Shown here: piece by piece, positions 1,549-35,826 of the stretch | Position numbering within the stretch: the stretch's first letter is position 1 | Layout: each line of letters opens with the position of its first letter | DNA from: Verrucomicrobiia bacterium | GTDB taxonomy: Bacteria > Verrucomicrobiota > Verrucomicrobiia > Limisphaerales > Pedosphaeraceae | Length of the DNA stretch: 64,000 nucleotides | Reading direction: 5' to 3' | Assembly: GCA_036268055.1 (NCBI GenBank) | Contig: DATAUW010000010.1 | Coordinates: 62,001-126,000 of the forward strand | Translations under genes and position numbers: made by a program | Notes under the pieces: generated by a model | Databases searched by the model: none | Seen by the model: the letters and a program-made list of their open reading frames with translations, nothing else | What the model was told of the DNA's origin: nothing

Positions 1549-3843
1549 GTGAAAACCCTCTCCCTCGTCTCGCTTATCGTTTGCGGCTTTGCCGCCAGCG
1601 CATTTTCCAGTGATTTGACCTTGTGGTATTCCCAGCCGGTGGGTTCGGTGGTCAGCACTATATTGACCACGAACCAGGGACAACCGGTGTTAAACATGGG
1701 TGGCGGCAAGGCTTCGTCTTTCATCAATGAGGCGCTGCCGATTGGAAATGGCCGTCTTGGCGCGTTGATCGCGGGCGGCACAGCGCGCGAACGGGTCGTG
1801 CTCGATGAAGACAGCTTGTGGACCGGCGACGAAAATCCCAGCGGCAATTACGACACGATGGGCGCTTATCAGATGCTCGCGAATCTGATCATTGATTTGC
1901 CCAGACACCAGGACGCCCTCGAATATCGCCGTGACCTGGACATCGGCGATGCCGTCGCGCATGTGAGTTACATATCGGGCGGAATAAGATTCACGCGCGA
2001 ATATTTTTGCAGCCACCCGGACGGCGTAATGATTATCCGACTGATGGCCAACCAGCCCGGCAGTTACACGGGAAGCCTGACCTTGATTGATGGCCACAAC
2101 GCCAAGGCAACCGTCAGCAGCAACCGGGTCGTGATCACCGGCGCGCTCGACAACGGGCTCAAATACGAGACGCAACTGATCGCGTTGCACGACGGCGGCG
2201 CGTTGCGGGCGAACACCACAGGAATCGAATTCAGTAATTGCGATAACCTCACGCTCATTCTCGCGGCGGGAACGGATTACGCCATGGACTATGCGAAGCA
2301 TTATCGCGGTGAAGACCCGCATCTTCGCGTGACGAAACAAATCAAAGCCGCTGCCAGAAAAAGTTATGAGTCGCTCAAGGACCGCCACGAAAAAGATTTC
2401 CATGCGCTCTTCGATCGCGTCGAACTCACTCTGGGCAATTCATCGCCGAACCAAATCGCGATGCCCACCGACCTCCGCAAAGTCCAACCCGCGACAAACT
2501 TTGACCCGCAGCTTGAAGAATTACTATTTCAATATGGCCGTTATCTTTTGATTTCCTGTTCGCGCCCGGACGGTTTGCCCGCAAATTTGCAGGGGCTTTG
2601 GAATGACAGCAATAATCCGCCGTGGCACTCGGATTATCATGCCAATATCAATATCCAGATGAACTACTGGCTGGCGGAACCGGCGAACCTCTCCGAATGC
2701 GCCGAGCCGTTTTTTGATCTGGTCACGAGCCAGCTTGAACCCTGGCGCGCAGCGACGCGGGCCGCAAAGGAGTTCAACACCAGTGACGGCAATCCAGCGC
2801 AGTGCGGTTTTGCGATCCGCACTTCGCACAATATTTTTGGCGGCATGGGCTGGCGATGGGACAACACCGCCAACGCCTGGTACTGCTGGCATTTCTGGCA
2901 ACATTACGCGTTTGATGGAGACAAGAAATTTTTGAAGACTGTGGCTTATCCCGTTTTGAAGGAAACCTGTGAATTTTGGGAAGACCATCTCAAGGCTTTG
3001 CCGAATGGACGCTTGGTCGTGCCGAACGCGTGGTCTCCGGAACACGGCCCGACGGAAGATGGGGTGAGTTACAGCCAGGAAATTGTTTGGGACTTGTTCA
3101 ACCATTATATCGCGGCGGCGGACGCGCTGAATATGGACAAAAATTACCGCGATAAAATTGCCGCGCTGCGTGACAAGTTGGCGACGCCAGGCATCGGCAG
3201 TTGGGGCCAGTTGCTGGAATGGATGACCGAGAAACACGATGCGAAAAATCCTGAACTCGATACGCCGAATGATCATCATCGGCATACGTCGCACTTGTTC
3301 GCGGTGTACCCGGGTGAACAAATCAATGTGACCAAGACCCCGGCACTTGCGCACGCGGCAAAAGTTTCGCTCGATGCGCGCGGCGATACCGGCGACGTAC
3401 GCGAGTGGTCCTTCGCCTGGCGCACCGCGTTATATGCACGGTTGCACGACGGCAATGACGCGCATCGCGAATTACAGCAACTGTTTTCGAATCGTAATAC
3501 GTGTCCGAACCTTTTTGGTCTGCATCCGCCGATGCAAATTGACGGAAACTTTGGCATCACCGCCGGCGTTTGCGAAATGTTGATGCAGTCGCACGAAGGC
3601 GAAATCAATTTGCTGCCGGCTCTGCCTGACACATGGCCGGATGGAAGTGTAAGGGGCCTGCGCGCGCGCGATGGATTTGTGGTGGATGTGGCGTGGCGCG
3701 GTGGCAAGCTGGCGTTGGCCACAATCCATTCGCTGGAAGGAAATCCCTGCCGTTTGCGCCACGGCAAAACGACTCGTGAATTCAAAATAGAAAAAGGCGG
3801 CAGCTTGTGGCTGGACGAAAATCTGAACGAAATCACGAAGTGA
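1549..3843 (+). CDS. Exported GH95 alpha-L-fucosidase/alpha-L-galactosidase
   Basis: 764 residues with a GTG start and an N-terminal signal peptide (hydrophobic stretch about residues 3-20). It shows the glycoside hydrolase family 95 signature: an N-terminal beta domain with LPIGNGRLGALIAGG, an (alpha/alpha)6 catalytic domain with HANINIQMNYW (N366, N368), SPEHGP (E498) and QIDGNFG (D665). These match the Asn-Asn, Glu and Asp residues that form the active site of Bifidobacterium AfcA. GH95 inverts terminal alpha-1,2-L-fucosides, and some members cleave alpha-L-galactose. Sitting beside xylan-degrading enzymes, removal of a side-chain sugar from glucuronoxylan or xyloglucan is the likely job. 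Substrate specificity cannot be read safely here. Confidence 0.92.
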   Translation: MKTLSLVSLIVCGFAASAFSSDLTLWYSQPVGSVVSTILTTNQGQPVLNMGGGKASSFINEALPIGNGRLGALIAGGTARERVVLDEDSLWTGDENPSGNYDTMGAYQMLANLIIDLPRHQDALEYRRDLDIGDAVAHVSYISGGIRFTREYFCSHPDGVMIIRLMANQPGSYTGSLTLIDGHNAKATVSSNRVVITGALDNGLKYETQLIALHDGGALRANTTGIEFSNCDNLTLILAAGTDYAMDYAKHYRGEDPHLRVTKQIKAAARKSYESLKDRHEKDFHALFDRVELTLGNSSPNQIAMPTDLRKVQPATNFDPQLEELLFQYGRYLLISCSRPDGLPANLQGLWNDSNNPPWHSDYHANINIQMNYWLAEPANLSECAEPFFDLVTSQLEPWRAATRAAKEFNTSDGNPAQCGFAIRTSHNIFGGMGWRWDNTANAWYCWHFWQHYAFDGDKKFLKTVAYPVLKETCEFWEDHLKALPNGRLVVPNAWSPEHGPTEDGVSYSQEIVWDLFNHYIAAADALNMDKNYRDKIAALRDKLATPGIGSWGQLLEWMTEKHDAKNPELDTPNDHHRHTSHLFAVYPGEQINVTKTPALAHAAKVSLDARGDTGDVREWSFAWRTALYARLHDGNDAHRELQQLFSNRNTCPNLFGLHPPMQIDGNFGITAGVCEMLMQSHEGEINLLPALPDTWPDGSVRGLRARDGFVVDVAWRGGKLALATIHSLEGNPCRLRHGKTTREFKIEKGGSLWLDENLNEITK

Positions 3844-3915
3844 TCGCGCTCCTCACGGCGCAGGCCTCATAGGATCGTCCATCCATCTTAGAGTGTCGTC
3901 CATTGCCTCAAAAAG

Positions 3916-6900
3916 ATGCGGCTGTTAGTTTCGTGGCGACCCCCCAAGGCATTGCCCGGCGGGTCACACAAGACCTTGAGACGTGTTTTGCTTTTTCTAT
4001 TTGTTTGCGCCAGCGTTTTCTCACCGCTGAAAAATTGTTTTGCCCTCGGTAAGTTCCAATATGTGTCGGACACCAGCAGCGCGGGTGATTTTCCGTTAGT
4101 GAAAAAAAGGAGCGCCGCAGACATTTTCGTGGATACGAACGATTTTGTCGGTGTCGCTCGTACCGCGAATGATTTGCGGCAGGATGTAACCCGCGTCACG
4201 GGCATCGCTCCTAAAATAATTTCCGCCCGGGACAAGGCGGGAAGAAATGTGGTCATTATCGGCACGCTCGGCAAAAACGGAATCATTGACCAGCTTGTCC
4301 GTGAAGGAAAACTGGATGTGACACAAATTTCCGGCAAATGGGAGTCGTTCCTGATTCAGGTGATACCCAATCCTCTGCCGCACGTCGCGAGCGCGCTAGT
4401 GATTGCCGGAAGCGACAAGCGCGGGGCGATTTACGGCATTTATGATCTCTCGCAACAGATGGGAGTTTCGCCTTGGTATTATTGGGCGGACGTGACGGCG
4501 AGGCATCGCGCCGAATTGTTTGTGAAGGCGGGACGTTACGCGCATGGCCCGCCATCCGTGAAGTATCGCGGAATTTTTCTGAACGACGAAGCGCCGGATT
4601 TAAGTAATTGGGTGCGGGAAAAATACGGCAGCTTGAAAGGAATGGACGGCGACCCGGCGAATTATGGACACGCATTTTACACTAATGTGTTCGAGCTGAT
4701 TTTGCGGCTGAAGGGAAATTATTTGTGGCCGGCGATGTGGAACAACGCTTTCAACGAGGACGACCCGGAGAACACACGGCTGGCGGACGAATATGGAATT
4801 GTGATGGGGACATCGCACCAGGAACCGATGATGCGCGCGCAAAAGGAATGGGACCGGCGCTATCGCAAGACGCTGGGAAGCTGGAATTACGCGAAGGAGC
4901 CGGACCTGCTGGGACAATTTTGGCGCGAAGGCATCGAGCGAAATAAAAATTTCGAGAACATCATCACGCTCGGTTTGCGTGGTGCAAATGATACGCCAAT
5001 GGCTGAAGGCGGTCCCGAAGCAAACAAGGCTCTGTTGGAAAAAATCGTGGATGTGCAGCGCAAGATGATCGGCGACGTGATTAATAGCAACGTCGCGCAG
5101 GTGCCGCAAATGTGGTGTCTCTACAAGGAGGTCATGGATTTTTACAATGCCGGCATGCGCGTGCCGGACGATGTGACGCTATTGTGGGCGGAAGATAATT
5201 GGGGGGATGTGCGGCGGTTGCCGACGGCGGATGAGCGCAAGCGCAGTGGCGGCGCGGGAATTTATTATCACTTCGATTATCACGGCGGCCCGCGCAGCTA
5301 CCAATGGCTCGACACGAGCCCGCTCCCGAAAATCTGGGACCAGATGTCGCTGGCGAAACAATACGGCGCCGACCGCATCTGGATTGTGAACGTGGGACAT
5401 CTCAAAGGTTATGAATTGCCAATGGAATATTTCATGGACCTCGCGTGGGATTCCGACAAGTGGACCAACGATAATTTAAGCGATTACGTGCGCTTGTGGG
5501 CGGCGCGCGAGTTCGGGCCGGAGCACGCAGCGGAGATTGCCAGCATCGTTGCCAAATACACGAAATACAACGGACGCCGCAAACCGGAATTGTTGGATGC
5601 TAATACGTATAGCGTTGTGAATTACAATGAAGCGGGAAAAGTCGTCGCGGATTTTGAAACGATTGCGGAACGGGCAGAAAAAATTGCGCTAACTTTGCCT
5701 AAAGAATCGCAAAACGCATTTTATGAACTGGTATTGTTTCCAGTCAAAGCCTGCGCAGTGGTGAATGAATTATATTTCGCTGCGGCGCGAAACGAATTGT
5801 ATGCACGGCAGGGGAGGGCGAGTGCGAACGACGAAGCGGCCGAAGTGCGTAGCAAATTCACGGAGGACACAAACCTGATGAATTATTTCAATCATGATTT
5901 TGCCGGAGGCAAATGGGATCACTTCATGGACCAGGCGCATCTCGGATATCGCGGCTGGGCAGACCCGCCATCAAACAATTTTGGAGCGATTAAATTAAGA
6001 GAAATCGAGGTCCAGAACACGGCGGCAATGGGCGTGGCCATCGAAGGTTCGGAAGCGGCGCGGCCGGGAACAAACGGCGATGCGGTTCTGCCACAATTTG
6101 ACGCATTGAGCCGGCGACAACATTACATCGAGGTTTTTAAAAAAGGAAAAAGAGATTTTGAGTTTGTGGCTTCGGCCAGTGAGCCGTGGATTGTTTTGAG
6201 CGAGCGAAAGGGTTCGGTGGGAAAAGATAAAAAGATTTGGGTGAAAATAAATTGGGAACGTGCCCCGAAGGGAACAGCGACTGGAACAATCAAAATCAAA
6301 GGCGCCGGCACGGAAGTAGCCGTAACCGTGAATGCACTGAATCCGATTAGGATCAGTCGAAAAAATTTGCGCGGTTTTGCGGAAGGTGAGGGGATCGTGG
6401 CAATCGAGCCAGAACATTTCACGCGGAACAGAGATGCCGGGTCCAACCGCTGGATTCGGATTGAAGATTACGGACGGACATTGTCCGGCATGCGCGCGAC
6501 CGGGCCCACGGATGTTAGCGCGACACCGGGCAAAGATTCTCCCTGTTTGGAATATCAAATGTATTTGTTCGACGCGGGCCCTGCGGAAATCGTCACGATC
6601 ACCAGTCCGATTTTAAATTTTGTGCCAGGTCGCGGAGTGCGGTTCGCGGTTTCGTTTGACGACGACGTGCCGCAAGTCGTAACGCTCGTGCCGGAAAAAT
6701 ATAGCGCGCAAAATGGAAACCAGGATTGGGAGACATCGGTGAAGGACAATGCCCGCTATGCAAAAACAACCCTCAAATTGGCAAGGCCCGGTTATCACAC
6801 ATTGAAGTATTGGATGATTGATCCCGGCGTAGTGCTGCAAAAGGTGGTGGTGGATATGGGCGGGTTGAAGCCAAGTTATTTGGGGCCGCCAGAAAGCTAT

Positions 6901-6924
6901 CATCAGGTGCCTTCGGAGAAGTAA
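3916..6924 (+). CDS. GH115 xylan alpha-1,2-glucuronidase
   Basis: 1002 residues, full length for glycoside hydrolase family 115. Characteristic blocks are visible: GSDKRGAIYGIYDLS, SPWYYWADV, KYRGIFLNDEAPDL, RLKGNYLWPAMWNNAF, GTSHQEPMMRAQKEWDR, VTLLWAEDNWGDVRRLP and, in the C-terminal domain, GIVAIEPEHF. The enzyme removes glucuronic or 4-O-methylglucuronic acid from internal and terminal xylose units of xylan. A hydrophobic segment around residues 23-38 ending near CFA is a probable signal peptide; the long basic lead suggests the true start may be a later TTG. It is followed 2 bp later by the CE15 esterase, so the two are almost surely co-transcribed and attack the same glucuronate side chain. 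Confidence 0.95.
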   Translation: MRLLVSWRPPKALPGGSHKTLRRVLLFLFVCASVFSPLKNCFALGKFQYVSDTSSAGDFPLVKKRSAADIFVDTNDFVGVARTANDLRQDVTRVTGIAPKIISARDKAGRNVVIIGTLGKNGIIDQLVREGKLDVTQISGKWESFLIQVIPNPLPHVASALVIAGSDKRGAIYGIYDLSQQMGVSPWYYWADVTARHRAELFVKAGRYAHGPPSVKYRGIFLNDEAPDLSNWVREKYGSLKGMDGDPANYGHAFYTNVFELILRLKGNYLWPAMWNNAFNEDDPENTRLADEYGIVMGTSHQEPMMRAQKEWDRRYRKTLGSWNYAKEPDLLGQFWREGIERNKNFENIITLGLRGANDTPMAEGGPEANKALLEKIVDVQRKMIGDVINSNVAQVPQMWCLYKEVMDFYNAGMRVPDDVTLLWAEDNWGDVRRLPTADERKRSGGAGIYYHFDYHGGPRSYQWLDTSPLPKIWDQMSLAKQYGADRIWIVNVGHLKGYELPMEYFMDLAWDSDKWTNDNLSDYVRLWAAREFGPEHAAEIASIVAKYTKYNGRRKPELLDANTYSVVNYNEAGKVVADFETIAERAEKIALTLPKESQNAFYELVLFPVKACAVVNELYFAAARNELYARQGRASANDEAAEVRSKFTEDTNLMNYFNHDFAGGKWDHFMDQAHLGYRGWADPPSNNFGAIKLREIEVQNTAAMGVAIEGSEAARPGTNGDAVLPQFDALSRRQHYIEVFKKGKRDFEFVASASEPWIVLSERKGSVGKDKKIWVKINWERAPKGTATGTIKIKGAGTEVAVTVNALNPIRISRKNLRGFAEGEGIVAIEPEHFTRNRDAGSNRWIRIEDYGRTLSGMRATGPTDVSATPGKDSPCLEYQMYLFDAGPAEIVTITSPILNFVPGRGVRFAVSFDDDVPQVVTLVPEKYSAQNGNQDWETSVKDNARYAKTTLKLARPGYHTLKYWMIDPGVVLQKVVVDMGGLKPSYLGPPESYHQVPSEK

Positions 6925-6926
6925 AC

Positions 6927-8405
6927 ATGGGCGAATTTCAATCTATGAAAAAGATCAATCGCGGGTTGTTTTCAATCGGCCTGGGCGGTTCTTTGCTGGC
7001 GGTTTCGTCATTACCCGCGGCAGATGCGCAAGAGCAAAAATCACCGCGCACGGCGGAACAGGATCATCAGGAGATGATGGAGCAGTTGCATATCACATCC
7101 ATCCGGCGCGGGCGTGACGGCATGAATCCCAGTTCGAAGAACTACGCAAATTATGATGAGGCCAAGGCGAATCCTTTTCCCGACTTGCCGGATCCATTGA
7201 CTTTGAATGATGGAAAGAAAGTAACGACGCCGGAGATGTGGTGGACGCAGCGGCGGCCGGAGATCGTGGAGTATTTTGATCGCGAGATTTATGGCCGCGT
7301 GCCCGCGCATACGCCAAAAGTAAATTGGGAAGTCACCAGAAGGACCAACACGACAACTGGCGAAATTCCGGTCATCACCAAACAACTCATCGGGCATGTG
7401 GATAATCCCGCAGACCCAGACATCACGGTAAATATTCAACTATCGCTCACGACACCAGCCAATGCGAAGGAGCCAGTCCCGGTGATGATGCAATTTGGCT
7501 TCGGGAATTTTGGTTTTGGCGCGTTTGGACGGCGCGGGGCGAACGCGCCAGGCGGCACGAATAATTTTGCATTTCGCGGAACCAATCGGCCGGGAGGCAC
7601 AAATAACCGGCCCGGATTTAGCGGAGGTTTTGGAGGATTTGGCGGGCCGGATTGGCGTCAACTGGTGCTTTTGAACGGCTGGGGTTACGCGGTGATTGTG
7701 CCAAACAGCGTGCAGGCGGACGACGGCGCGGGGCTGACGCAGGGGATAATCGGCTTGGTGAATCATGGGCAGCCGCGCAAGCCGGACGACTGGGGTGCAT
7801 TGCGCGCATGGGCGTGGGGCGCGAGCCGCGCATTGGATTATTTTGAAACCGACCCGGCGGTGAACGCGAAAGAAGTCGGACTCGAAGGCCATTCGCGCTA
7901 CGGCAAAGCAACGCTCGTGGCGATGGCGTACGATCCGCGTTTCGCTATCGCGTATGTGAGTTCGTCAGGCGAAGGCGGCGCGAAATTACATCGGCGTGAT
8001 TGGGGTGAAATCGTGGAGAACGTAGCGGGCTCGGGCGAATATCATTGGATGGCGGGAAATTTTATCAAGTACGCGGGGCCATTGCATTGGAATGATCTGC
8101 CGGTGGATTCGCATGAACTGATCGCGTTATGCGCGCCGCGGCCCGTGTTCATCAGCGCGGGCTCGACGAACGGAGACGCATGGGTGGACGCAAAAGGCTC
8201 GTTTCTCGCCGCCGTGGCTGCGGGTCCGGTTTACCGGTTGCTCGGCCAACGTGATTTAGGCGCGACCGAATTTCCACCGATTGAAACGACCTACATCACT
8301 GGCGAAATCGGATTTCGCCAGCACAAGGCTGGTCACACCGATGCGCCGAATTGGCCAACGTTCCTGAAATTCGCGAACAAATATTTAAAAGAGCCCGCGC
8401 AGTAG
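6927..8405 (+). CDS. CE15 glucuronoyl esterase with a Gly/Asn-rich insert
   Basis: 492 residues, alpha/beta hydrolase. The nucleophile motif reads GHSRYGK (S323), the CE15 variant of the usual GCSRxGK; the likely catalytic histidine is H470 in KAGHTD. SSGEGGAKLHRRDWGE and LCAPRPVFISAGS are also typical of the family. CE15 enzymes hydrolyse ester bonds between lignin alcohols and 4-O-methylglucuronate on xylan. A signal peptide is present (residues about 7-33); an alternative ATG at 6945 would give a tidier one. Residues about 188-238 form a low-complexity stretch with repeated PGGTNN units, which I do not know from standard members. It lies 2 bp after GH115 and ends 12 bp from the convergent esterase gene. 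Confidence 0.92.
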   Translation: MGEFQSMKKINRGLFSIGLGGSLLAVSSLPAADAQEQKSPRTAEQDHQEMMEQLHITSIRRGRDGMNPSSKNYANYDEAKANPFPDLPDPLTLNDGKKVTTPEMWWTQRRPEIVEYFDREIYGRVPAHTPKVNWEVTRRTNTTTGEIPVITKQLIGHVDNPADPDITVNIQLSLTTPANAKEPVPVMMQFGFGNFGFGAFGRRGANAPGGTNNFAFRGTNRPGGTNNRPGFSGGFGGFGGPDWRQLVLLNGWGYAVIVPNSVQADDGAGLTQGIIGLVNHGQPRKPDDWGALRAWAWGASRALDYFETDPAVNAKEVGLEGHSRYGKATLVAMAYDPRFAIAYVSSSGEGGAKLHRRDWGEIVENVAGSGEYHWMAGNFIKYAGPLHWNDLPVDSHELIALCAPRPVFISAGSTNGDAWVDAKGSFLAAVAAGPVYRLLGQRDLGATEFPPIETTYITGEIGFRQHKAGHTDAPNWPTFLKFANKYLKEPAQ

Positions 8406-8417
8406 GAAAATTTTGAA

Positions 8418-10379
8418 TCACCAGGGCTTGTGATTATCGGTCACACCCGGCCAATCATCCGTGCGGAATGGAACAGCGGGCAAACCCGCGCCGTTGAAAA
8501 GTGTGGCGGCGGGGTTCGCCTGCCAGGCATAACGCGCCGCTACGGGTTCGGGCACTTCCAGCGACGAAACGATTATAGAATCGCCGTCAAGTTTTGCTTC
8601 AGCCCAATGCCATTTGCGATCCTTCCCCGCGACCGAAAATTCTTCGAGCCTATCGCCCTTCACCGTGAGACCGCTCTCGGTATTTTTGAAATGCAATTTG
8701 AGCGCGCCGGGCAAATGATCAACCGATGCGAATGTTGGCCCGGCGAAAGGAATGTCTTTGCCGTAATCTTTTGCGAGTGCGCAGAACGCGAGGCGTTCAC
8801 CGACAATTTTTTTATCGGGCGGATGGATATTGTCGGCATCGCCGGTGTCAACCGTCACGGCGAGACCGGAATGCGCCACATTTTTGGCGGTGAGAAATTG
8901 CGCTTCACGCAGTTCGGCCCAGGAATCGTCGCCGGGTTGCGCGCGGCGGTGCATGAACGCGGGCAGGCTGACGATGTAAAACGGAAAATCGCCCTCGTGA
9001 AAAAGTTTTCGCCAATCGCCGATCATCGCGGGAAGCAATGTGCGATACGGGCGAGCGCGCTCGAAATTCGCTTCGCCTTGATACCAGATGGCGCCACGGA
9101 GCGAAAGCGGCGCGATGGGTTCGATCATGCCTTCATAAAGAACGATCGGCATGGTGGGATAATTCTCGAAACTGAGCGGGAGCGGATGCGGCGGCCGAGC
9201 GTCCGCGCTGAGCGCGCCCTTCCAATCGCCGCCGAGCGGGATCGCCAATTTGTCCCCGAGGCTGAGACGAAGCGTGTCGGGCTTGGCGAGAAATCCGCCC
9301 TTGGGTTTCATTTTGAAGACGCGGATGGCGATCACATTCCGGCCGGGCTTGAGCACATTGTCGTTGACGAAATAGACCCGGGGATTTTCGACCCAGGAAC
9401 TTGCGCCGATCCAATGGCCATTGATATAAGTCGTATCCATTTTTTCAATCGAGCCAAGAAACAGCATGGCTCTGTTCGTGCCCAAAGGATCGGGCAAAGT
9501 AAATTCTTTGCGGAACCAGCAAATGCTCGGAGCGTCGGGCACGCCGAGTTGTTCAAAGGCGTTCGGCAACTGAACAGTTTTCCACGACGAATCATTGAAA
9601 TCTAGCGATGCCCAGTTGTTGCTTTGGCCGACGTCGTATTCGTCAAGCCAGTGCATGAGAAAACTGCCATACTCGGGGCCGCCTTTGGCGTGAAGACGCT
9701 CGATCTCGGTGAGAACGGGATCGAAATCGTGGAGTTTATGAAGCGACTCGGGACTCATCCAACTCTCCGCCGGCGTGCCGCCAACGCAGTCCTGAACCAA
9801 TCCGATCGGGACATGTAATTGCTCCTGGAGCGCGCGCCCAAAATAATAGGCGACGGCGGAGAAGCCGCCATTCTCGGCGATGGTTTGCGGCGAGCAAATT
9901 TTCCACGAGCCTTGCGGCGCTGCCGTGGGCGCATAGGAAACGTGTTGCTGCACTTTGAACAAACGAATTTCGGGATGGTCGGCGGACTTGATTTCGTCAG
10001 CGCCGTTGCGCGTGCGGGCAAGGCCAAGCTCCATGTTGGATTGCCCGCCACAGAGCCAGACTTCGCCAACCAAAATTTCGTGCAGGACAATATTTTGATT
10101 TGGGCCTGCTACGGTCATGGTGTAAGGACCACCGGTTGGAGGCGCTTCAATTTCGGTTTGCCAGCGGCCGTCCGCGCCAGCGATGGCTTTCGCAGTGTAA
10201 CCATTGATTTCGACGTGGATGACGTCGCCGCTGTTTGCCCAGCCCCAAATGCGAATGGGTTTGTCACGCTGGACGACCATGTTGTCGCCGAACATGGGAC
10301 TGAGGAGTGGCGAGGTCTTTTCAGCATGCAGGGAAGCGGCGGCGAAGAGAGCGATCAGCGAGATGATTGGAAAGCGCAT
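8418..10379 (-). CDS. Exported sialate O-acetylesterase-family esterase
   Basis: 653 residues with a signal peptide (about 1-19). The N-terminal beta domain MFGDNMVVQRDKPIRIWG precedes an SGNH hydrolase domain with nucleophile block CGGQSNMEL (S114). The SGNH domain is split by a jelly-roll insert (about residues 250-385: FNDSSWKTVQLP, YINGHWIGAS, RNVIAIRVF) of the type seen in GH2 sugar-binding domains, then resumes with IAPLSLRGAIWYQGEANF. This architecture defines the sialate O-acetylesterase family. In plant-polymer loci such proteins usually remove acetyl groups from xylan rather than sialic acid, and the neighbours make that the better reading. It is convergent with the CE15 gene. Confidence 0.9.
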   Translation of the reverse strand: MRFPIISLIALFAAASLHAEKTSPLLSPMFGDNMVVQRDKPIRIWGWANSGDVIHVEINGYTAKAIAGADGRWQTEIEAPPTGGPYTMTVAGPNQNIVLHEILVGEVWLCGGQSNMELGLARTRNGADEIKSADHPEIRLFKVQQHVSYAPTAAPQGSWKICSPQTIAENGGFSAVAYYFGRALQEQLHVPIGLVQDCVGGTPAESWMSPESLHKLHDFDPVLTEIERLHAKGGPEYGSFLMHWLDEYDVGQSNNWASLDFNDSSWKTVQLPNAFEQLGVPDAPSICWFRKEFTLPDPLGTNRAMLFLGSIEKMDTTYINGHWIGASSWVENPRVYFVNDNVLKPGRNVIAIRVFKMKPKGGFLAKPDTLRLSLGDKLAIPLGGDWKGALSADARPPHPLPLSFENYPTMPIVLYEGMIEPIAPLSLRGAIWYQGEANFERARPYRTLLPAMIGDWRKLFHEGDFPFYIVSLPAFMHRRAQPGDDSWAELREAQFLTAKNVAHSGLAVTVDTGDADNIHPPDKKIVGERLAFCALAKDYGKDIPFAGPTFASVDHLPGALKLHFKNTESGLTVKGDRLEEFSVAGKDRKWHWAEAKLDGDSIIVSSLEVPEPVAARYAWQANPAATLFNGAGLPAVPFRTDDWPGVTDNHKPW

Positions 10380-10544
10380 AATTCAGAATTAAAATTCGAA
10401 GCCAGCATTGAAACTTATGAACTCATATTTGTTAACGCGCAAATCCGTGTAGATGCAACCTTAGCAAAAAAAGTTCTGTTCGATTTTTTCTAAAATCCAT
10501 TACCAGGGCCGTTTCGCCGTCCAGAGAGAATGGATTCGAGATGC

Positions 10545-11621
10545 TCATGCCGATCCTTTTCCGATCATTTGCAGGGCCGCGCGCATATAGCCCATCGCGT
10601 AAGCCATGCCTGCGTGCCAGGGTGCGTTGCAGGCCATTTGCGGTGTGTGATCGGGAATCAGCACACCTTGATAGTCGTTTTGTTTGAGTATGCGCAACAC
10701 GCGCAGCATGTCCACTTCACCGTCGTCAATAAAAGTTTCCCGATAATTGGGGACCTTGCCCTTGACGTTGCGGAAATGCACGTAGCCGATGCGATTTTGA
10801 CGGCTGTAATTTTCCACCGTCTCGTAAATATCCCCCTCAGTCATCTCCGCGAGTGAGCCCAGGCAAAATTCCAGCGTGTTCGCCGGGCTGGGCGTGAGAT
10901 CAATCAGGCGCTGGTAAAGGCGCGGCTGATATACAAGTCGTGGTTGTCCACGCATGAAGGGCATCGGCGGATCGTCGGGATGCGCGGCGAGTTTGACGCC
11001 CGCTTCCTCGGCCACCGGCGTGACTTCGCGCAGAAATTCTCCAACGCGATTCCACAGCTCATCATGGGTAATACCCGGCACATCGCCTTTCGGCGCGTGG
11101 GCATCATAAACCATGTTCCACACCATGCCGTTTGGCATCGGCGTATCGAGCGAACCTTCCATACCAACCGACATCGCGTCGCCGCGCGCATAAGGCGCGT
11201 GAGTGCGGCCGCAAACGCCAGCGATGCTAAAGTTATAACCCATGATGGGAATGCCCGCCTGGCCGAGACGGCGAATAATGGTCTTCACATTTTCCAACTG
11301 CCGGCGCTTTTTCGGACCATCCAGCAGGATGTCGTGCCAATGCGCCGGATCAAAATTCTCGATGGCTTCGATCTCGAGCCCGGCGGCGTTGGCCTCTTTG
11401 CGCATCGCGACCAATTCTTCCAAGGTCCAAAGCTGATCGGGATCGCCGGCAAGACCCCAGCCTTGATCAGTGCCGGTCGGCTGGTTATCGCGGGGATTCT
11501 TCGCGCCGCCTTTGAAATAATCCACGAGGTGGACGACCAGATGCGTAGCCCCAGCCTGCCGCGCGAAGAGGAAATTATCGCGCGTTAGCATGTGACGATA
11601 CAAACCCAGGCCAAGTTTCAT
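10545..11621 (-). CDS. uxuA: Mannonate dehydratase, UxuA family
   Basis: 358 residues, TIM-barrel protein of the UxuA family, in the range of the shorter mannonate dehydratases. Diagnostic stretches are GWGLAGDPDQLWT, MGYNFSIAGVCGRT, HPDDPPMPFMRGQPRL and YVHFRNVKG, and the C-terminal LIPDHTPQMACNAPWH. It dehydrates D-mannonate to 2-keto-3-deoxygluconate in the cytoplasm, the step that follows glucuronate isomerisation and reduction. Beside GH115 and CE15 it is the catabolic end of glucuronate release. Isomerase and reductase genes are not in the window. It shares a 242-bp divergent promoter region with the GH3 gene. Confidence 0.88.
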   Translation of the reverse strand: MKLGLGLYRHMLTRDNFLFARQAGATHLVVHLVDYFKGGAKNPRDNQPTGTDQGWGLAGDPDQLWTLEELVAMRKEANAAGLEIEAIENFDPAHWHDILLDGPKKRRQLENVKTIIRRLGQAGIPIMGYNFSIAGVCGRTHAPYARGDAMSVGMEGSLDTPMPNGMVWNMVYDAHAPKGDVPGITHDELWNRVGEFLREVTPVAEEAGVKLAAHPDDPPMPFMRGQPRLVYQPRLYQRLIDLTPSPANTLEFCLGSLAEMTEGDIYETVENYSRQNRIGYVHFRNVKGKVPNYRETFIDDGEVDMLRVLRILKQNDYQGVLIPDHTPQMACNAPWHAGMAYAMGYMRAALQMIGKGSA

Positions 11622-11863
11622 TTTTGGGCCGCGTGGAGTGGCGTTGCCTGCTTATTCATTCCCCCTGATGAGTGGTTTCTCAAGTAGCATTTGCGCTTTA
11701 GTAGGATTCTCCATGCGATTCGTATTTTTCTCCATTCCGCCGCTCCTCGCCGCCTGAAATACTGGCGGCAATGATTCAAACCCCGGACGCTACCGTGCGA
11801 AATTTTTTCCGCAACTCGCGCTTTGCGAGTAAACGCGTCCCGCGATAATCTTTCGTCCAACCC
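11622..11863. promoter_or_regulatory. Divergent promoter region between uxuA and the GH3 gene
   Basis: 242 bp separating two genes that read away from each other, so both promoters must lie here. A palindrome at 11814-11830 (ACTCGC, 5-nt spacer, GCGAGT) sits 34 bp before the GH3 start and could be an operator or a leader hairpin. I cannot name a regulator; none is encoded in the locus. Confidence 0.4.
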
Positions 11864-14233
11864 ATGAACAAACTCTCATCCCGCAAGTACTCTGCGCGAT
11901 CTTCCAAAGCAAAACTCTCTTCGCGCAACTCTGCGGTGAAAACCGCCACGCTGTTGCCTTATAAAAATACGAAGCTGCTCATCGCCAAACGCGTGCAGGA
12001 TCTTCTCTCGCGGATGTCGCTCGAAGAAAAAGCCGCGCAAATGATGTGCGTGTGGCAGAAGAAGGCGGAAACCCTTCTGGATGCGGATGGAAATTTCGAT
12101 TTCGCCAAGGCGAAAAAAAGTTTTGCCGATGGACATGGCCTGGGACAAGTCGGACGTCCAAGCGACGCGGGCAAAGGCAAGAACGCGCGCGAGATGGCGG
12201 AGTTGACGAATGCCATCCAGAAATTTTTTATCGAACATAGCCGGCTCGGCGTGCCAGTTATTTTTCACGAAGAATGTTTGCACGGCCACGCGGCGATTGG
12301 CGGCACGAGCTTTCCGCAGCCAATCGGTTTGGGCGCGACCTTCAATCCGGACCTGGTGCAGAAATTATTTGCGATAACCGCGTGGGAAGCGCGCGTGCGC
12401 GGTACGCACCAGGCATTGACGCCGGTCGTGGATGTCGCGCGCGAACCGCGGTGGGGCCGCGTCGAAGAAACTTACGGTGAAGATCCATATCTCGTTTCGC
12501 GTTTGGGAATCGCCGCCGTAATTGGTTTCCAAGGCGATGGTTCATTCAAAAATAAACGCCACGTCATCGCGACGCTGAAACATTTTGCCGCGCACGGCCA
12601 GCCGGAGGCGGGGATGAATTGCGGGCCGGTGGATGTGTCGGAACGGGTGTTACGCGAAACTTTTTTGTATCCGTTCAAGGAAGCGTTGCATGTCGCGGGG
12701 GCGATCAGCGTCATGGCTTCGTATAACGAAATTGACGGCGTGCCGTCGCATGCGAGCGAGTGGCTGCTGCGCGATGTACTGCGCAAGGAATGGGGCTTCA
12801 AGGGTTTTGTGGTCTCGGATTATTATGCGATTTGGGAACTGGCTCATCGCCCAGACACGCACGGTCATCACGTCGCGAAAGACCGTCGCGAATCCTGCGT
12901 GCTCGCAGTGAAGGCAGGAGTGAACATCGAGTTGCCGGAGCCGGATTGCTATTTGCATCTCGTGGACCTCGTCCGCAAACGCGAATTGCAAGAGTCGGAT
13001 TTGGACGACCTTGTTGCGCCGATGCTGCATTACAAATTCAAGCTGGGTTTGTTCGACGATCCTTACGTTGACCCGGTTGAGGCGGAACGCGTCGTTGGCA
13101 GCGCGGCGCATCGCGAGATTGCACGACAGGCGGCGCGCGAAACGATCACGCTGCTCAAGAACGAAAATAATTTAGCGCCGGTTAACCTAAAGAAGCTCAA
13201 GACGATTGCGGTCATCGGGCCGAATGCCGATCGCAGTTTGCTCGGCGGTTACAGCGGCATGCCAAACTATAATGTCTCCGTGCTGGCGGGCATCAAGGCA
13301 CGCGTGGGCGAAGCCGCAAAGGTTCTGCACGCCGAGGGTTGCAAAATCACGATTGGCGGCTCGTGGAATATTGACCAAGTCATTCCTGCCGATCCCGCGG
13401 AAGATGAAAAATTGATCGCCGAGGCCGTGAAGATCGCGAAACAGGCGGATGTGGTCGTGCTCGCCATCGGTGGCAATGAACAAACTTCGCGCGAAGCCTG
13501 GTCGCTCAAACATCTCGGCGACCGCGCAAACCTTGAATTGCTTGGCTGCCAAAATAAATTGGTGGAGGCGATGGTTGCGACTGGAAAACCCGTCGTGGCG
13601 TTTCTATTCAATGGCCGTCCGCTCGCTATCAAGCATCTCACCGACCATGTGCCGGTGATTTTTGAATGCTGGTATCTCGGCCAGGAAACGGGCGACGCGG
13701 TAGCAGAAGTTTTGTTTGGCGATTTCAATCCCGGCGGAAAATTGCCGATCAGCATTCCGCGTTCGGCAGGGCATGTGCCGGTGTTTTATAATCACAAGCC
13801 TTCAGCGCGGCGCGGCTATTTGTTTGACGACGTTTCACCGCTGTACGCCTTTGGGCAGGGGTTAAGCTACACGCAATTCACCTTCGACAAACCGCGCCTG
13901 GAAAAAAATAAGATCCGGCGCAATGAACGCACGCGCGTGAGCGTCCGCGTCACGAATAGTGGCAAAGTCAAAGGCGAAGAAGTGGTGCAAATGTATATTC
14001 GCGACGTGGTCAGTTCGGTGACTCGCCCGGTAAAAGAGTTAAAGGGGTTTCAGAAAATTTCTCTCGCGCCTGGCCAAAGCAAAACCGTTTCGCTCGACAT
14101 CACGCCGGAGTTGCTTTCCTTCTACGACGTTAAAATGAATTACATCGTGGAGCCGGGCGAGTTCGTGATCATGGTCGGAAATTCCTCACGCAACGCCGAT
14201 TTGCAGAAAGTGATTTTGACGGTCGAAAAATAA
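11864..14233 (+). CDS. Cytosolic GH3 beta-glycosidase (probable beta-xylosidase)
   Basis: 789 residues with the full GH3 layout: TIM-barrel domain beginning at RVQDLLSRMSLEEKAAQM, catalytic nucleophile in GFVVSDYYAIW (D319), alpha/beta sandwich domain (TITLLKNENNLAP, TIAVIGPNAD) and a C-terminal fibronectin III-like domain (RVSVRVTNSGKVKGEEVVQMYIRD). The basic, serine-rich first 30 residues are not a signal peptide, so it should act inside the cell on imported oligosaccharides. GH3 covers beta-glucosidases and beta-xylosidases; the xylan context favours beta-xylosidase. The sugar symporter begins 17 bp downstream, which fits import followed by intracellular cleavage. Confidence 0.92.
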   Translation: MNKLSSRKYSARSSKAKLSSRNSAVKTATLLPYKNTKLLIAKRVQDLLSRMSLEEKAAQMMCVWQKKAETLLDADGNFDFAKAKKSFADGHGLGQVGRPSDAGKGKNAREMAELTNAIQKFFIEHSRLGVPVIFHEECLHGHAAIGGTSFPQPIGLGATFNPDLVQKLFAITAWEARVRGTHQALTPVVDVAREPRWGRVEETYGEDPYLVSRLGIAAVIGFQGDGSFKNKRHVIATLKHFAAHGQPEAGMNCGPVDVSERVLRETFLYPFKEALHVAGAISVMASYNEIDGVPSHASEWLLRDVLRKEWGFKGFVVSDYYAIWELAHRPDTHGHHVAKDRRESCVLAVKAGVNIELPEPDCYLHLVDLVRKRELQESDLDDLVAPMLHYKFKLGLFDDPYVDPVEAERVVGSAAHREIARQAARETITLLKNENNLAPVNLKKLKTIAVIGPNADRSLLGGYSGMPNYNVSVLAGIKARVGEAAKVLHAEGCKITIGGSWNIDQVIPADPAEDEKLIAEAVKIAKQADVVVLAIGGNEQTSREAWSLKHLGDRANLELLGCQNKLVEAMVATGKPVVAFLFNGRPLAIKHLTDHVPVIFECWYLGQETGDAVAEVLFGDFNPGGKLPISIPRSAGHVPVFYNHKPSARRGYLFDDVSPLYAFGQGLSYTQFTFDKPRLEKNKIRRNERTRVSVRVTNSGKVKGEEVVQMYIRDVVSSVTRPVKELKGFQKISLAPGQSKTVSLDITPELLSFYDVKMNYIVEPGEFVIMVGNSSRNADLQKVILTVEK

Positions 14234-14250
14234 ATTCCACGACCAAAATT

Positions 14251-15771
14251 ATGCCCGACAATTCCGAAAAACTTTCGTTCGTCGAGAAGGCCGGTTACAG
14301 CGCGGCGGATGCCGCCGCGAATTTCGTCTTCATGACGATGATTCTTTTTCAGACGAGTTTCTACACGGATGTTTTTGGCATTAGCGCCGCCGCCGCCGCC
14401 GCGATTCTAATGTCGGCGCGGTTGTGGGATGCATTTTTCGATCCGATTGTCGGTATGCTGGCGGACCGCACCAACACGCGCTGGGGCAAGTTTCGCCCCT
14501 GGGTGCTGTTCACCGCCGTTCCGTGGTGTGTGGTGATGGTGCTGGCATACACGACGCCGCACGGCTGGAGCATGCATTCACTCATTGCCTACGCCACCGT
14601 TACGAACATCATGCTGATGACGCTTTACTCCGCGAATAACATGCCATACTCCGCGCTGGGCGGCGTGATGACCGGCGACGTCAATGAACGCGCCAAATTG
14701 AATTCGTTCCGCTTCGTCTCGGTCAACATCGCGCAATTCATCGTCGGCGGATTCACGCTGCCGCTGGTCGCGAAATTCGCCGCCGGTCATGACCGCCAAT
14801 ACGGCTGGCAAATCACGATGACGATTTGGTCAGTTTTGTGTCTCGTATTGTTCCTCATCACTTTCGCCACGACGAAGGAACGCATCAAACCGGAGCCGCA
14901 ACAGAAATCCTCGCCGTTGCAGGATTTTGGAGACCTCTTCAAAAACAGTCCCTGGGCCGTGATGTTTTTCATGACGCTGATTCATTTCGCCATCCTTTCG
15001 TTTCGCGGCGGCGCGCTCTACAATTACTATCATCACTACGCGGACAAGGCGGCGCTCTATGACTGGGTACAGAAGTTCGGTTTGACTGCGCCGCCGCTTA
15101 CGCAGGGCGCGCCCGCGGCGAGCGGCATCTTTGAATGGCTTGGTTACATTGTCCATGCCGACAAAGCGAATTTGGAAAATTCAAATGTCGCAGACGTGGC
15201 CAACAGCATCATCAACATGATCGGAACCGGCGTGACGATCGTGGTGATTTTGCTTTCACCATCGCTGTCGGAAAAATTTGGCAAAAAGGCGGTCGCGGTC
15301 GGCGGCTTCGCGCTGGCGACGATTGGGACATTCGCATTTTATATGCTTAGTCCGACCAATATTTCGGGCATGATCTGGCTGACCGTTTTCATCGCGGTTG
15401 CTTATGCGCCGACGATTCCGCTGGTATGGGCCATCTATGCCGATGTGGCCGACTATTCAGAGTGGAAAAATGGACGACGCGCGACGGGAATTATTTTTGC
15501 CACTATTGGGTTCGCGCTTAAGTCCGGGCTGGCGCTGGGTTCGGCGTCCTTCCTATGGATCATGGCGGGATTTTTTAATTACGACACCGTCCAACCGCAA
15601 ACCGCCGACGCGGTGCAGGGTTACCGGATGACGAGCACGATTGTTGTGGGGATTCTCTTTGCAATCTGCACGTGCCTGCTTGCGGCGTACAAATTGAACA
15701 AGCAAAAGACGATTCAAATCGCGGATGAATTGGCGGCGCGCAGAAGGAAGTTTTCAACCCAAGCGGCTTGA
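14251..15771 (+). CDS. GPH-family sugar:cation symporter
   Basis: 506 residues with about 12 membrane segments. It carries the glycoside-pentoside-hexuronide family signature near the N terminus: RLWDAFFDPIVGMLADRTN followed by TRWGKFRPWVLF, and YSALGGVMTGDVNERAKLNSFR. GPH transporters (XynP, MelB, UidB types) import oligosaccharides or glycosides with protons or sodium across the inner membrane. Positioned between GH3 and GH10 xylanase it most likely imports xylo-oligosaccharides, possibly still carrying glucuronate. The loop near residues 275-300 is longer than usual. Confidence 0.92.
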   Translation: MPDNSEKLSFVEKAGYSAADAAANFVFMTMILFQTSFYTDVFGISAAAAAAILMSARLWDAFFDPIVGMLADRTNTRWGKFRPWVLFTAVPWCVVMVLAYTTPHGWSMHSLIAYATVTNIMLMTLYSANNMPYSALGGVMTGDVNERAKLNSFRFVSVNIAQFIVGGFTLPLVAKFAAGHDRQYGWQITMTIWSVLCLVLFLITFATTKERIKPEPQQKSSPLQDFGDLFKNSPWAVMFFMTLIHFAILSFRGGALYNYYHHYADKAALYDWVQKFGLTAPPLTQGAPAASGIFEWLGYIVHADKANLENSNVADVANSIINMIGTGVTIVVILLSPSLSEKFGKKAVAVGGFALATIGTFAFYMLSPTNISGMIWLTVFIAVAYAPTIPLVWAIYADVADYSEWKNGRRATGIIFATIGFALKSGLALGSASFLWIMAGFFNYDTVQPQTADAVQGYRMTSTIVVGILFAICTCLLAAYKLNKQKTIQIADELAARRRKFSTQAA

Positions 15772-15781
15772 AGTCTCAGGT

Positions 15782-15810
15782 TGTAGCGGCGGTCATAGCC
15801 CACCGCTACA
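15782..15810. repeat. Short inverted repeat between symporter and xylanase genes
   Basis: Eight-base arms TGTAGCGG and CCGCTACA separated by 13 bases, 14 bp before the xylanase start. It could form a hairpin in the message. The shape resembles the short extragenic palindromes common in this phylum. A partial match in the opposite sense (GTAGCGGTGG) occurs near 57209. Confidence 0.5.
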
Positions 15811-15823
15811 GAAAAAATATTTT

Positions 15824-16969
15824 ATGGAAAATTATTTTAGATTGGGGAACGCCTGGCGGTCGGTAGCGTGCCTATTGCCGACGGCGGGGTTGCTGGTGAG
15901 TTGCGCCAGTGCCGGGCCGGAAAATGCGGCGACTTTGAAGGCGGCATTTAAGAACGACTTTCTCATCGGCGCGGCGTTGAACGAAAATCAATTCACGGAG
16001 CGCGATGCCGTCGGCGCTAAAATCGTGAGTGAACAATTCAACAGCATCACACCCGAAAATATTTTGAAGTGGGAATCCGTGCACCCCGAGCCAGACAAAT
16101 ATAATTTTGCGCCCGGAGATGGATACGTCGCTTTCGGCGAGAAGCACCACATGTGGATCATCGGCCACACGCTAGTCTGGCATAACCAAACTCCCAACTG
16201 GGTTTTCGAGGATGACAACGGAAAACCCGTGGATCGCGAAATCTTGCTCAAGCGATTACACGACCATATTCAAACGGTTGTAGGCCGTTACAAAGGCCGC
16301 ATCAAAGGCTGGGATGTGGTCAATGAGGCGTTGAATGAAGACGGCACGATGCGCCAGACTCGGTGGTTGAAAATCATTGGTGACGATTACATCGTCAAAG
16401 CTTTTCAATACGCTCACGAAGCGGACCCCAACGCTCAACTTCATTACAACGATTACTCGCTGGAGAACGAACCCAAACGCCGCGGGGCGATCGAGTTGAT
16501 CAAAAAGCTCAAGGCGGCGGGTGTGCCCATCACCGCCGTGGGTTTGCAGGGCCACGACAAAATGGATTGGCCGACCACGCAACAGGAGGATGAAACGATT
16601 GCCGATTTCGCGAAGCTGGGCGTTGCCGTGATGATCACCGAACTGGACGTGGACGTGTTGCCATCGCCGTCGCGCAATCAAACCGCCGACATCACCCTGC
16701 GCCTGGAGCAACAGTCGAAAACGAATCCTTACACGAACGGTTTGCCGGACGAAGTGCAGCAGCAACTCGCCAAACGCTATGCCGATTTGTTCAGGGTCTT
16801 TGTGAAACATCGCGACGTCGTGAAGCGGGTGACGTTCTGGGGCGTGTGCGATGGCGATTCGTGGTTGAATGGCTGGCCGGTTCGTGGCCGCACGAGTTAT
16901 CCGTTGCTCTTTGATCGCGAAGGGAACCCCAAGCCTGCCTTTCAGGCGGTGATCGAGACGGCAAAGTGA
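15824..16969 (+). CDS. GH10 endo-beta-1,4-xylanase, lipoprotein
   Basis: 381 residues from the ATG at 15824; an upstream in-frame ATG at 15725 overlaps the symporter gene and was rejected because the signal peptide begins at 15824. The N terminus is a lipoprotein signal ending in LLVSC. The GH10 barrel is complete: WHNQTPNW, acid/base E168 in DVVNEAL, HYNDYSLE, GLQGHDKMDW, nucleophile E273 in ITELDVDVL and the C-terminal FWGVCDGDSWLNGWP. It cleaves the xylan backbone at the cell surface and supplies oligosaccharides to the symporter. It is probably co-transcribed with GH3 and the symporter. Confidence 0.95.
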   Translation: MENYFRLGNAWRSVACLLPTAGLLVSCASAGPENAATLKAAFKNDFLIGAALNENQFTERDAVGAKIVSEQFNSITPENILKWESVHPEPDKYNFAPGDGYVAFGEKHHMWIIGHTLVWHNQTPNWVFEDDNGKPVDREILLKRLHDHIQTVVGRYKGRIKGWDVVNEALNEDGTMRQTRWLKIIGDDYIVKAFQYAHEADPNAQLHYNDYSLENEPKRRGAIELIKKLKAAGVPITAVGLQGHDKMDWPTTQQEDETIADFAKLGVAVMITELDVDVLPSPSRNQTADITLRLEQQSKTNPYTNGLPDEVQQQLAKRYADLFRVFVKHRDVVKRVTFWGVCDGDSWLNGWPVRGRTSYPLLFDREGNPKPAFQAVIETAK

Positions 16970-17037: not shown

Positions 17038-17108
17038 GCAGACCGAGGTTAAGAATGCTATTAGATTCGGCAGCGCGCCGAATCCGGACGCCAAGGGCGT
17101 CGGTCTGC
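17038..17108 (+). ncRNA. Structured element (three-way junction) upstream of mgtE
   Basis: Nested inverted repeats: outer arms GCAGACCGA (17038-17046) and TCGGTCTGC (17100-17108), an inner hairpin GATTCGGC / GCCGAATC (17064-17084) and a second, GACGCC / GGCGTC (17087-17101), which competes with the outer stem for two bases. It ends 24 bp before the mgtE start. It does not match the M-box magnesium riboswitch consensus I know. It may be a mobile palindromic repeat or a cis-regulatory leader. Confidence 0.45.
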
Positions 17109-34193: not shown

Positions 34194-34661
34194 TTAGATT
34201 AATTGGTTTTCGATAAATTCTAATACCTCTTCTGCTTTGTTCAGATAATTTGAAATTCGCGCAATAGTGATGTCGGAATTTTGGCCATGCGCAATTTGGT
34301 GTCGGTTCGCCATAATTGCATCAATCGCTTCTCTTCTACCGTTTAGATCGACAAATGTTTCCAAGTCTTTGGCCCATGATTCTTTGAATGATCCTGAGAT
34401 TTCTAAGAATCTTTTGGTCTTAGGGTTTTGAATTTTACCAAGTTGGATTGAAGCGTAATCGCCGATTGGTTTTGGTGCTATTCTTGTAACAAAATTAGTA
34501 TACAGAGCAATCACCGCATTTTCTAATAATCCCGCTGTAAGCACACATGCGTAGCGCGCCCAGTGAGATTGCAATTCTAAGTCATCAGCAGTGGCGGAAG
34601 AACTGTTCAACACTAGCGCGCGAATCGAGGCAAGCTGCCTAGCGATGTCAGCGTTTCTCAT
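34194..34661 (-). CDS. HEPN-domain protein (predicted RNase), RiboL-PSP-like
   Basis: 155 residues, all alpha, with the HEPN catalytic motif RHQIAH (R120, H125; R-x4-H) preceded by a polar residue (N119), as in active HEPN ribonucleases. The N-terminal helices (IARQLASIRAL, ARYACVLTAGLLENAVI) fit the RiboL-PSP-HEPN family, though the exact family name is my recollection. The gene overlaps the DUF262 gene by 4 nt (ATGA) and its TAA directly precedes the pheT ATG. Codon and base use are far more AT-rich than pheT and pheS. I infer a toxin or defence nuclease paired with the DUF262 partner. Confidence 0.8.
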   Translation of the reverse strand: MRNADIARQLASIRALVLNSSSATADDLELQSHWARYACVLTAGLLENAVIALYTNFVTRIAPKPIGDYASIQLGKIQNPKTKRFLEISGSFKESWAKDLETFVDLNGRREAIDAIMANRHQIAHGQNSDITIARISNYLNKAEEVLEFIENQLI

Positions 34662-35776: not shown

Positions 35777-35826
35777 GCGAAAAGTTTTTGATGGCGTTTG
35801 GTGAATGAGAATATGAATCAGCTATT

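Follow-up and report, generated by a model that had tools for sequence, protein, structure and literature searches.

A 64,000-nucleotide stretch of a Verrucomicrobiia bacterium genome (assembly GCA_036268055.1, contig DATAUW010000010.1, positions 62,001 to 126,000; hereafter the window) carries, at 1549–16969, genes for a GH95 protein, GH115, CE15, a SASA-family esterase, a relative of the mannonate dehydratase UxuA, GH3, a GPH symporter and a GH10 lipoprotein. We propose that this is probably a glucuronoxylan utilisation locus in which the UxuA relative (P0004) acts as a metal-dependent lyase of sugar acids that serves the (4-O-methyl)glucuronate branch specifically. Judged by its sequence, P0004 is not an ordinary UxuA but a member of a separate clade of 94 sequences, which we call D. 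Glucuronoxylan as the target, already proposed in an earlier sequence-only reading of the same DNA, has good support from the gene set and from its repeated co-occurrence in relatives. The locus as such is of a known type; the UxuA-like clade and the company it keeps are the part worth following.

The sequence-only reading had called P0004 UxuA. The family part of this label stood, since the PF03786 cut-off was passed, but P0004 failed both NCBIfam mannonate-dehydratase cut-offs (PRK03906, 151.2 bits against 191; the TIGR00695 equivalog, 112.1 against 199.55), belongs to a separate clade and has changed residues. Four further proteins were scanned against the same models: two D members failed both, one intermediate also failed both, PRK03906 narrowly (189.6, and 123.0 for the other), and one canonical Verrucomicrobiota UxuA passed both (474 and 451.6). 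A contig scan returned 448 relatives of the UxuA-like protein, and among the best 80, which were kept, the closest named relatives were Verrucomicrobiota, several of them subdivision 3 or Limisphaerales; most of the 80 were Verrucomicrobiota metagenome-assembled genomes, some with titles naming bog, palsa, fen, reactor or groundwater. The lifestyle of a soil plant-litter degrader, suggested in the sequence-only reading, could not be demonstrated. When 194 Verrucomicrobiota genomes were sampled, 89 had any UxuA-like match. Matches at least 59% identical were classed as D and occurred in 17 genomes, the window's included, one match being a fragment; the others were classed as canonical-like (C, about 400 residues where extracted) or intermediate (I, about 28–44% identical). 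A FastTree analysis of 136 rows, with rows of identical C-termini merged and the D fragment L102 excluded, placed the 94 D rows together on one side of a branch whose local support was 99%; the program warned that long branches come together at the base of D. One genome of the sample (G018) holds, besides a full D gene, a fragment matching D residues 1–49 (65%) at G018:C1:2359358-2359504, near a GH115 gene at 2360817, which is perhaps a broken second copy.

Which features set D apart? Seven residues, H214, C253, H282, R284, E295, D324 and H325 in P0004, were identical in 94/94 D and 20/20 C rows, and comprise the metal and core residues of UxuA. Around this core, (i) position 336 is Tyr in all 20 C rows and in 20 of the 23 I rows (the D-like fragment L102 being counted by score among these 23), but His in 91 of the 94 D rows and Tyr in the other three; (ii) position 322 is Arg in the same proportions of C and I rows (20/20 and 20/23), but Ile or Val in 94/94 D rows and Arg in none; and (iii) positions 132, 136 and 137, which are Met, Asp and Trp in C, are Ser, Val and Ala/Cys/Ser/Gly in D. 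The Tyr belongs to a PGY motif and is residue 345 of the 3ban chain, or 325 once an offset of 20 is subtracted, and we take Tyr325 of mannonate dehydratase to be catalytic and hence defining. P0004 has neither this Tyr nor the Arg of the RPDH motif (His336 and Ile322 stand in their places). The overall fold is that of a mannonate dehydratase: an AlphaFold2 model of D (predicted local distance difference test score 86.9) was nearest to three solved mannonate dehydratases (Z 35.6, 33.9 and 33.9; next family 24.7), and aligned with 3ban, the best of them, over 317 residues at 2.4 Å.

The clade is tied to alpha-glucuronidase genes. GH115 was found in 43 of the 194 sampled genomes and in all ten D genomes of the window's class, where it lay 1.3 to 16.1 kb from D in 10/10; multiplying the chance values for this proximity gives about 10^-19, a rough estimate in which kinship is left out of account, as it is in the Fisher tests below. 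Among genomes with GH115 and no D, a canonical-like gene was linked to it within 17.5 kb in 2/15 (G085 and G140), against 11/14 for D (Fisher p = 0.0007), and an intermediate gene in 1/8 (G101, at 2.8 kb; p = 0.006). At the level of loci, GH115 or GH67 lay within 9.5 kb in 31/94 D loci versus 2/20 C and 0/20 I loci by tblastn (p = 0.0004), even though the D flanks were shorter (mean 13.9 kb in all, versus 16.0 and 17.9 for C and I). The tblastn query was the window's GH115 and misses distant members such as that of G101; with this Pfam-found gene added, the controls rose to 3/40 (p = 0.002). GH67 was present in eight of the ten class D genomes, the exceptions being that of the window (G000) and G018. 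We also tried plain inheritance as a description of the alpha-glucuronidase link and rejected it, the D tree requiring 21 changes, a figure inflated by truncated contigs.

In some relatives D has further company. Among its neighbours are a methyltransferase of the URO-D/MtaA-CmuA type, a corrinoid protein that binds B12, the corrinoid activator RACo, a pterin-binding methyltransferase and an MTHFR-like protein, all short of NCBIfam cut-offs. At least two of four module markers were present in 9/94 D loci (L115, L116, L117, L122, L008, L013, L037, L039 and L056), six of which also have GH115 or GH67, and a URO-D gene in 16/94. None of the four markers was found by tblastn in 40 control loci; the 20 intermediate loci gave MTHFR-like matches in two and homocysteine-methyltransferase-like matches in two. 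One such context reads GH115, CE15, LacI, D, RACo, a protein of no assigned family, URO-D, corrinoid protein and pterin-binding methyltransferase (L056). Counted by genome, RACo occurs in 69/194 and in 9/17 with D; in G010, G091, G099 and G143 its distance to D is about 1 kb, and the other five have it elsewhere. G147, a genome outside the 40 controls, has RACo at 4.5 kb from an intermediate UxuA-like gene. G143 carries an additional RACo next to MtaB on a different contig, so the D-linked set is unlikely to be a methanol system. MtaB itself was present in three of the 17 D genomes and never on D's contig, which makes it less likely that the corrinoid module merely captures methanol. Neither RACo (PF14574) nor URO-D (PF01208), by which we looked for a corrinoid O-demethylase, had a match in the window genome (0 each).

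Three side observations concern RACo, its neighbours and URO-D proteins. Beside RACo lies a conserved protein of about 410 residues (L056:12707-14134, L122:12496-13728, and L116:6371-7888 on the minus strand), found by tblastn in nine loci, of which L011 and L115 are the same contig region; two members had no Pfam match, and one of these no NCBIfam or PDB match either. RACo matches in many Verrucomicrobiota outside the window's class (e.g., G002, G006, G049, G070 and G079) carry exactly one in-frame TGA, which might be read as selenocysteine or in another way. Finally, since the window genome, at 96% completeness, yielded no URO-D family protein, it also yielded no HemE.

Is the glucuronate route complete in the window genome? 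This genome comprises 5.1 Mb in 41 contigs, and P0004 is the sole PF03786 gene that we found in it, as the GH115 of the locus is its sole GH115 in an own-genome search; GH67 was not found. Of the other steps of the Ashwell route, UxaC is encoded by one copy on another contig (C1), adjoining a frame read as a putative GH28. UxuB (PF08125) had 0 matches, and the SDR that accompanies D elsewhere had no close homologue (best 35% identity), although a more distant reductase could serve. Thus, the “complete path” of the sequence-only reading did not hold up, and the glucuronate route is incomplete as found. In other D genomes the picture is fuller. An SDR cluster lies near D in 21/94 loci, adjacent to it in 17, and 14/17 D genomes, all but G000, G010 and G086, have an SDR with 56% or more identity to one of those next to D. 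UxuB is present in G010 and G086 and absent from ten of the 14 SDR-bearing D genomes, a distribution that fits replacement of the fructuronate reductase by the SDR; G000 fits neither. UxaC was found in all 17. In two genomes, G169 and G181, D and the SDR stand next to GH115, and both a canonical-like UxuA match and PF08125 occur in other places; these double gene sets suggest two parallel routes.

What might the locus do? From the gene identities, the clade, the changed residues and the genomic association we infer the reactions, where in the cell they take place and what D acts on. GH10 would cut xylan at the cell surface, CE15 and the SASA-family esterase would strip ester groups, and GH115 would release (4-O-methyl)glucuronate, the 4-O-methylated acid being a common side chain of wood xylan. 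The GPH symporter may then take up xylo-oligosaccharides or the uronate, a cytoplasmic GH3 would yield xylose, and UxaC (encoded elsewhere), a reductase and finally D would lead to 2-keto-3-deoxygluconate. A dedicated (methyl)glucuronate role of D is likely on this evidence. Several observations weigh against it: (i) D genomes of other classes are linked to GH115 in just one case of seven (G189, 6.4 kb); (ii) the link is not exclusive to D, as the canonical-like and intermediate cases above attest; (iii) UxaC lies within 9.5 kb of D in 0/94 loci, versus 6/40 canonical or intermediate UxuA loci; (iv) some D loci have lactonase and RraA-like genes and no xylan genes (L071 and L080); and (v) the window genome, at its level of completeness, has a gap in the route where UxuB or a close SDR homologue would stand.

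Why would a uronate branch call for an altered UxuA? In the established isomerase route, C1 and C3 of mannonate derive from C6 and C4 of glucuronate, respectively. The oxygen that UxuA takes from mannonate C3 is thus that of glucuronate C4, where 4-O-methylglucuronate bears its methyl ether. Since this chemistry removes the very oxygen that bears the ether, a UxuA relative could expel methanol and demethylate in one step. UxaC would isomerise 4-O-methylglucuronate, reduction would give 3-O-methyl-D-mannonate, and D would eliminate methanol, not water, to give 2-keto-3-deoxygluconate, with the replacements of Tyr by His336, Arg by Ile322, Met by Ser132 and Asp by Val136 making room for the methyl ether. 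Such a lyase would account for the clade, the altered residues, the GH115 link and the missing RACo in 8/17 D genomes, and would leave the corrinoid module of other D loci unexplained. We consider it a speculative and rather improbable refinement of the proposal.

Alternatively, D could be a lineage-specific version of the ordinary D-mannonate dehydratase, another system having demethylated 4-O-methylglucuronate beforehand: the corrinoid module in the relatives that carry it beside D, and in the window organism something that we did not find. This explanation is quite possible, although we lean away from it. It would make sense of the module markers being confined to D loci in our comparison (9/94, mostly with an alpha-glucuronidase, versus 0/40), of the identities of the module proteins, of RACo close to D in four genomes, of the MtaB-linked second RACo in G143, which sets the D-linked set apart from a simple methanol system, and of UxaC in every D genome. 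Yet seven of the eight D genomes without RACo, the window's among them, have GH115, RACo lies away from D in five more and occurs near an intermediate gene in G147, and neither the window nor the loss of Tyr and Arg is explained.

The changed residues would also fit another possibility, that D dehydrates a different sugar acid as part of an oxidative pathway (SDR dehydrogenase, lactonase, D and an RraA-like aldolase), in which case GH115 proximity would reflect uronate oxidation instead of the isomerase route. UxaC being near D in none of the 94 loci, the SDR genes in 21/94, RraA-like genes in 8/94 and a lactonase immediately ahead of D in L071, L080 and L081 all point this way, but the lactonase and RraA contexts are a minority, L071 has Tyr, not His, at 336, and UxaC is present in 17/17 D genomes, so that we find this route unlikely. 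In these loci (L080 is from Maribacter) the lactonase directly before D is 7-bladed, and in L071 and L080 D is also accompanied by SDR and RraA-like genes without GH115. The gene set and the PF03786 match agree with a complete, ordinary glucuronoxylan path with a standard UxuA, as originally read, but the clade, the failed cut-offs, the residues and the lack of any reductase found make it very improbable. We retain as the probable reading a D lyase dedicated to the (4-O-methyl)glucuronate branch.

Features of the glucuronoxylan locus (window coordinates)
Feature	Position	Strand	Support
GH95, probable first locus gene	1549..3843	+	PF22124 475 bits, PF14498, PF21307
GH115 alpha-glucuronidase	3916..6924	+	PF15979 505.8 bits, PF17829 (GH115_C) 193.4 bits; PDB 4zmh E 2.7e-277
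CE15 glucuronoyl esterase	6927..8405	+	PF22244 104.5 bits; PDB 6hsw (CE15 protein) E 1.7e-116
SASA-family carbohydrate esterase with GH2_N-like insert	8418..10379	-	PF03629 59.6 bits, PF02837 33.3 bits; PDB 9h4u “Carbohydrate esterase FI8” E 1.2e-128
D-clade UxuA-like protein (P0004)	10545..11621	-	PF03786 178 bits (cut-off 23.7); below NCBIfam cut-offs
Divergent intergenic region, 242 bp, between D gene and GH3	11622..11863	.	sequence
GH3 beta-xylosidase-like	11864..14233	+	PF00933, PF01915, PF14310; PDB 7zb3 “Beta-xylosidase” E 1.3e-181
GPH-family cation symporter	14251..15771	+	TIGR00792 329 bits (cut-off 231); PF13347
GH10 xylanase, probable lipoprotein	15824..16969	+	PF00331 336.6 bits; PDB 1uqy E 5.8e-111; lipobox-like LLVSC

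The remaining gene assignments of the sequence-only reading fared well. GH115, GH3, GPH and GH10 scored far above their Pfam or NCBIfam cut-offs, GH115 with both of its family domains, and CE15 was borne out by its family match and its best PDB match. All genes that it named are real; it overlooked the GH95 gene, which ends 72 bp before GH115 on the same strand and belongs to a family that we take to comprise alpha-L-fucosidases and galactosidases, and the SASA-family esterase, a candidate acetyl esterase. The 2-bp gap between GH115 and CE15 was also correct, with a Shine-Dalgarno-like GGAGAAG, seen by eye, preceding the CE15 start, and the two genes are close neighbours in L042, L053, L056 and L058 as well. 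The Ser, Glu and His regions of CE15, which presumably contribute its catalytic residues, align with those of relatives, and lignin-linked glucuronate is a plausible target of the predicted enzyme. Its residues ~192–241 form a Gly/Asn/Phe-rich insert that L041 shares in part; six other CE15 relatives have a much shorter version or none. The top NCBIfam matches of GH3 were beta-xylosidases, below cut-off. By eye, signal-like leaders are present in GH115, CE15 and the SASA-family esterase, and none in GH3. GH10 had been described as a surface xylanase starting at 15725; the family and a lipobox-like leader agree with this, but the start was misplaced. We prefer ATG 15824 because the frame from 15725 overlaps the symporter gene and because 15824 opens a leader ending, by eye, in the lipobox-like LLVSC. 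The absence of SusC/SusD was confirmed by Pfam scans of 30 window proteins, all eight locus genes included, none of which had either domain.

The region between the D and GH3 genes is likely a promoter region; an operator search there gave no operator, just a weak 11-nt inverted repeat, and the same search across the intergenic regions gave no convincing common palindrome. Because the promoter and terminator scans were overall at chance level (11 versus 10.5 and 23 versus 24.9), we single out one strong terminator-like hairpin, at 1422–1446, upstream of GH95. A near-perfect palindrome, TGTAGCGGCGG/CCACCGCTACA, lies at 15782–15810 between the symporter and GH10 genes and has no second copy in the window with up to 3 mismatches allowed. 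Nested inverted repeats, GCAGACCGA/TCGGTCTGC and GATTCGGC/GCCGAATC, lie at 17038–17108 between GH10 and mgtE. Elsewhere in the window, a gene with a GmrSD-type restriction domain (PF03235; 34658–35776, minus strand) lies between phenylalanyl-tRNA synthetase genes (31767–34193 and 35827–36858), within a dip in GC content at 34001–36000 (43.7%, versus ~56–59% in adjacent bins). Its position and low GC make it a probable insertion.

How does the locus compare with known systems? A literature search, mostly without subscription papers, retrieved no description of an enzyme for the methyl group of 4-O-methylglucuronate, which does not prove its absence from print, and within the same scope corrinoid demethylation was nowhere tied to xylan. 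A paper on UroD-type methyltransferase clusters, as far as its available main text goes, ties them to methyl-sulfur and selenium, and never uses the terms sugar, xylan, uronic or Verrucomicrob. Given a UxuA-like clade linked to GH115 and, in part of its relatives, to a corrinoid methyl-transfer module, a few purified proteins could test this methyl-group gap directly. Relatives of the locus carry the components of UroD-superfamily corrinoid O-demethylases (URO-D methyltransferase, corrinoid protein, RACo and pterin-binding methyltransferase), for which we infer a sugar ether as substrate; in contrast, the window locus has no such module, and neither URO-D nor RACo was found in the window genome. 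D resembles UxuA/ManD (EC 4.2.1.8; PDB 3ban, 4eac and 1tz9) in fold (Z 33.9–35.6) and in its seven core residues, but is 24–29% identical and has His336, Ile322, Ser132, Val136 and Ala/Cys137 for Tyr, Arg, Met, Asp and Trp. In the Geobacillus hemicellulose locus (aguA GH67, kdgKA-uxaC-uxuAB), alpha-glucuronidase and uronate catabolism genes also stand together, and the available text terms the released acid simply D-glucuronic acid (PMC4194401); the window locus has instead GH115 and CE15, an atypical UxuA relative and no uxaC or uxuB. As far as the accessible text describes them, the CE15 xylan polysaccharide utilisation loci of Bacteroides eggerthii and B. gallinarum combine CE15, GH115 and GH10, that of B. 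eggerthii having GH95 as well, like the window locus (PMC8417218), whose own set is smaller and has no SusC/SusD domains among the genes scanned.

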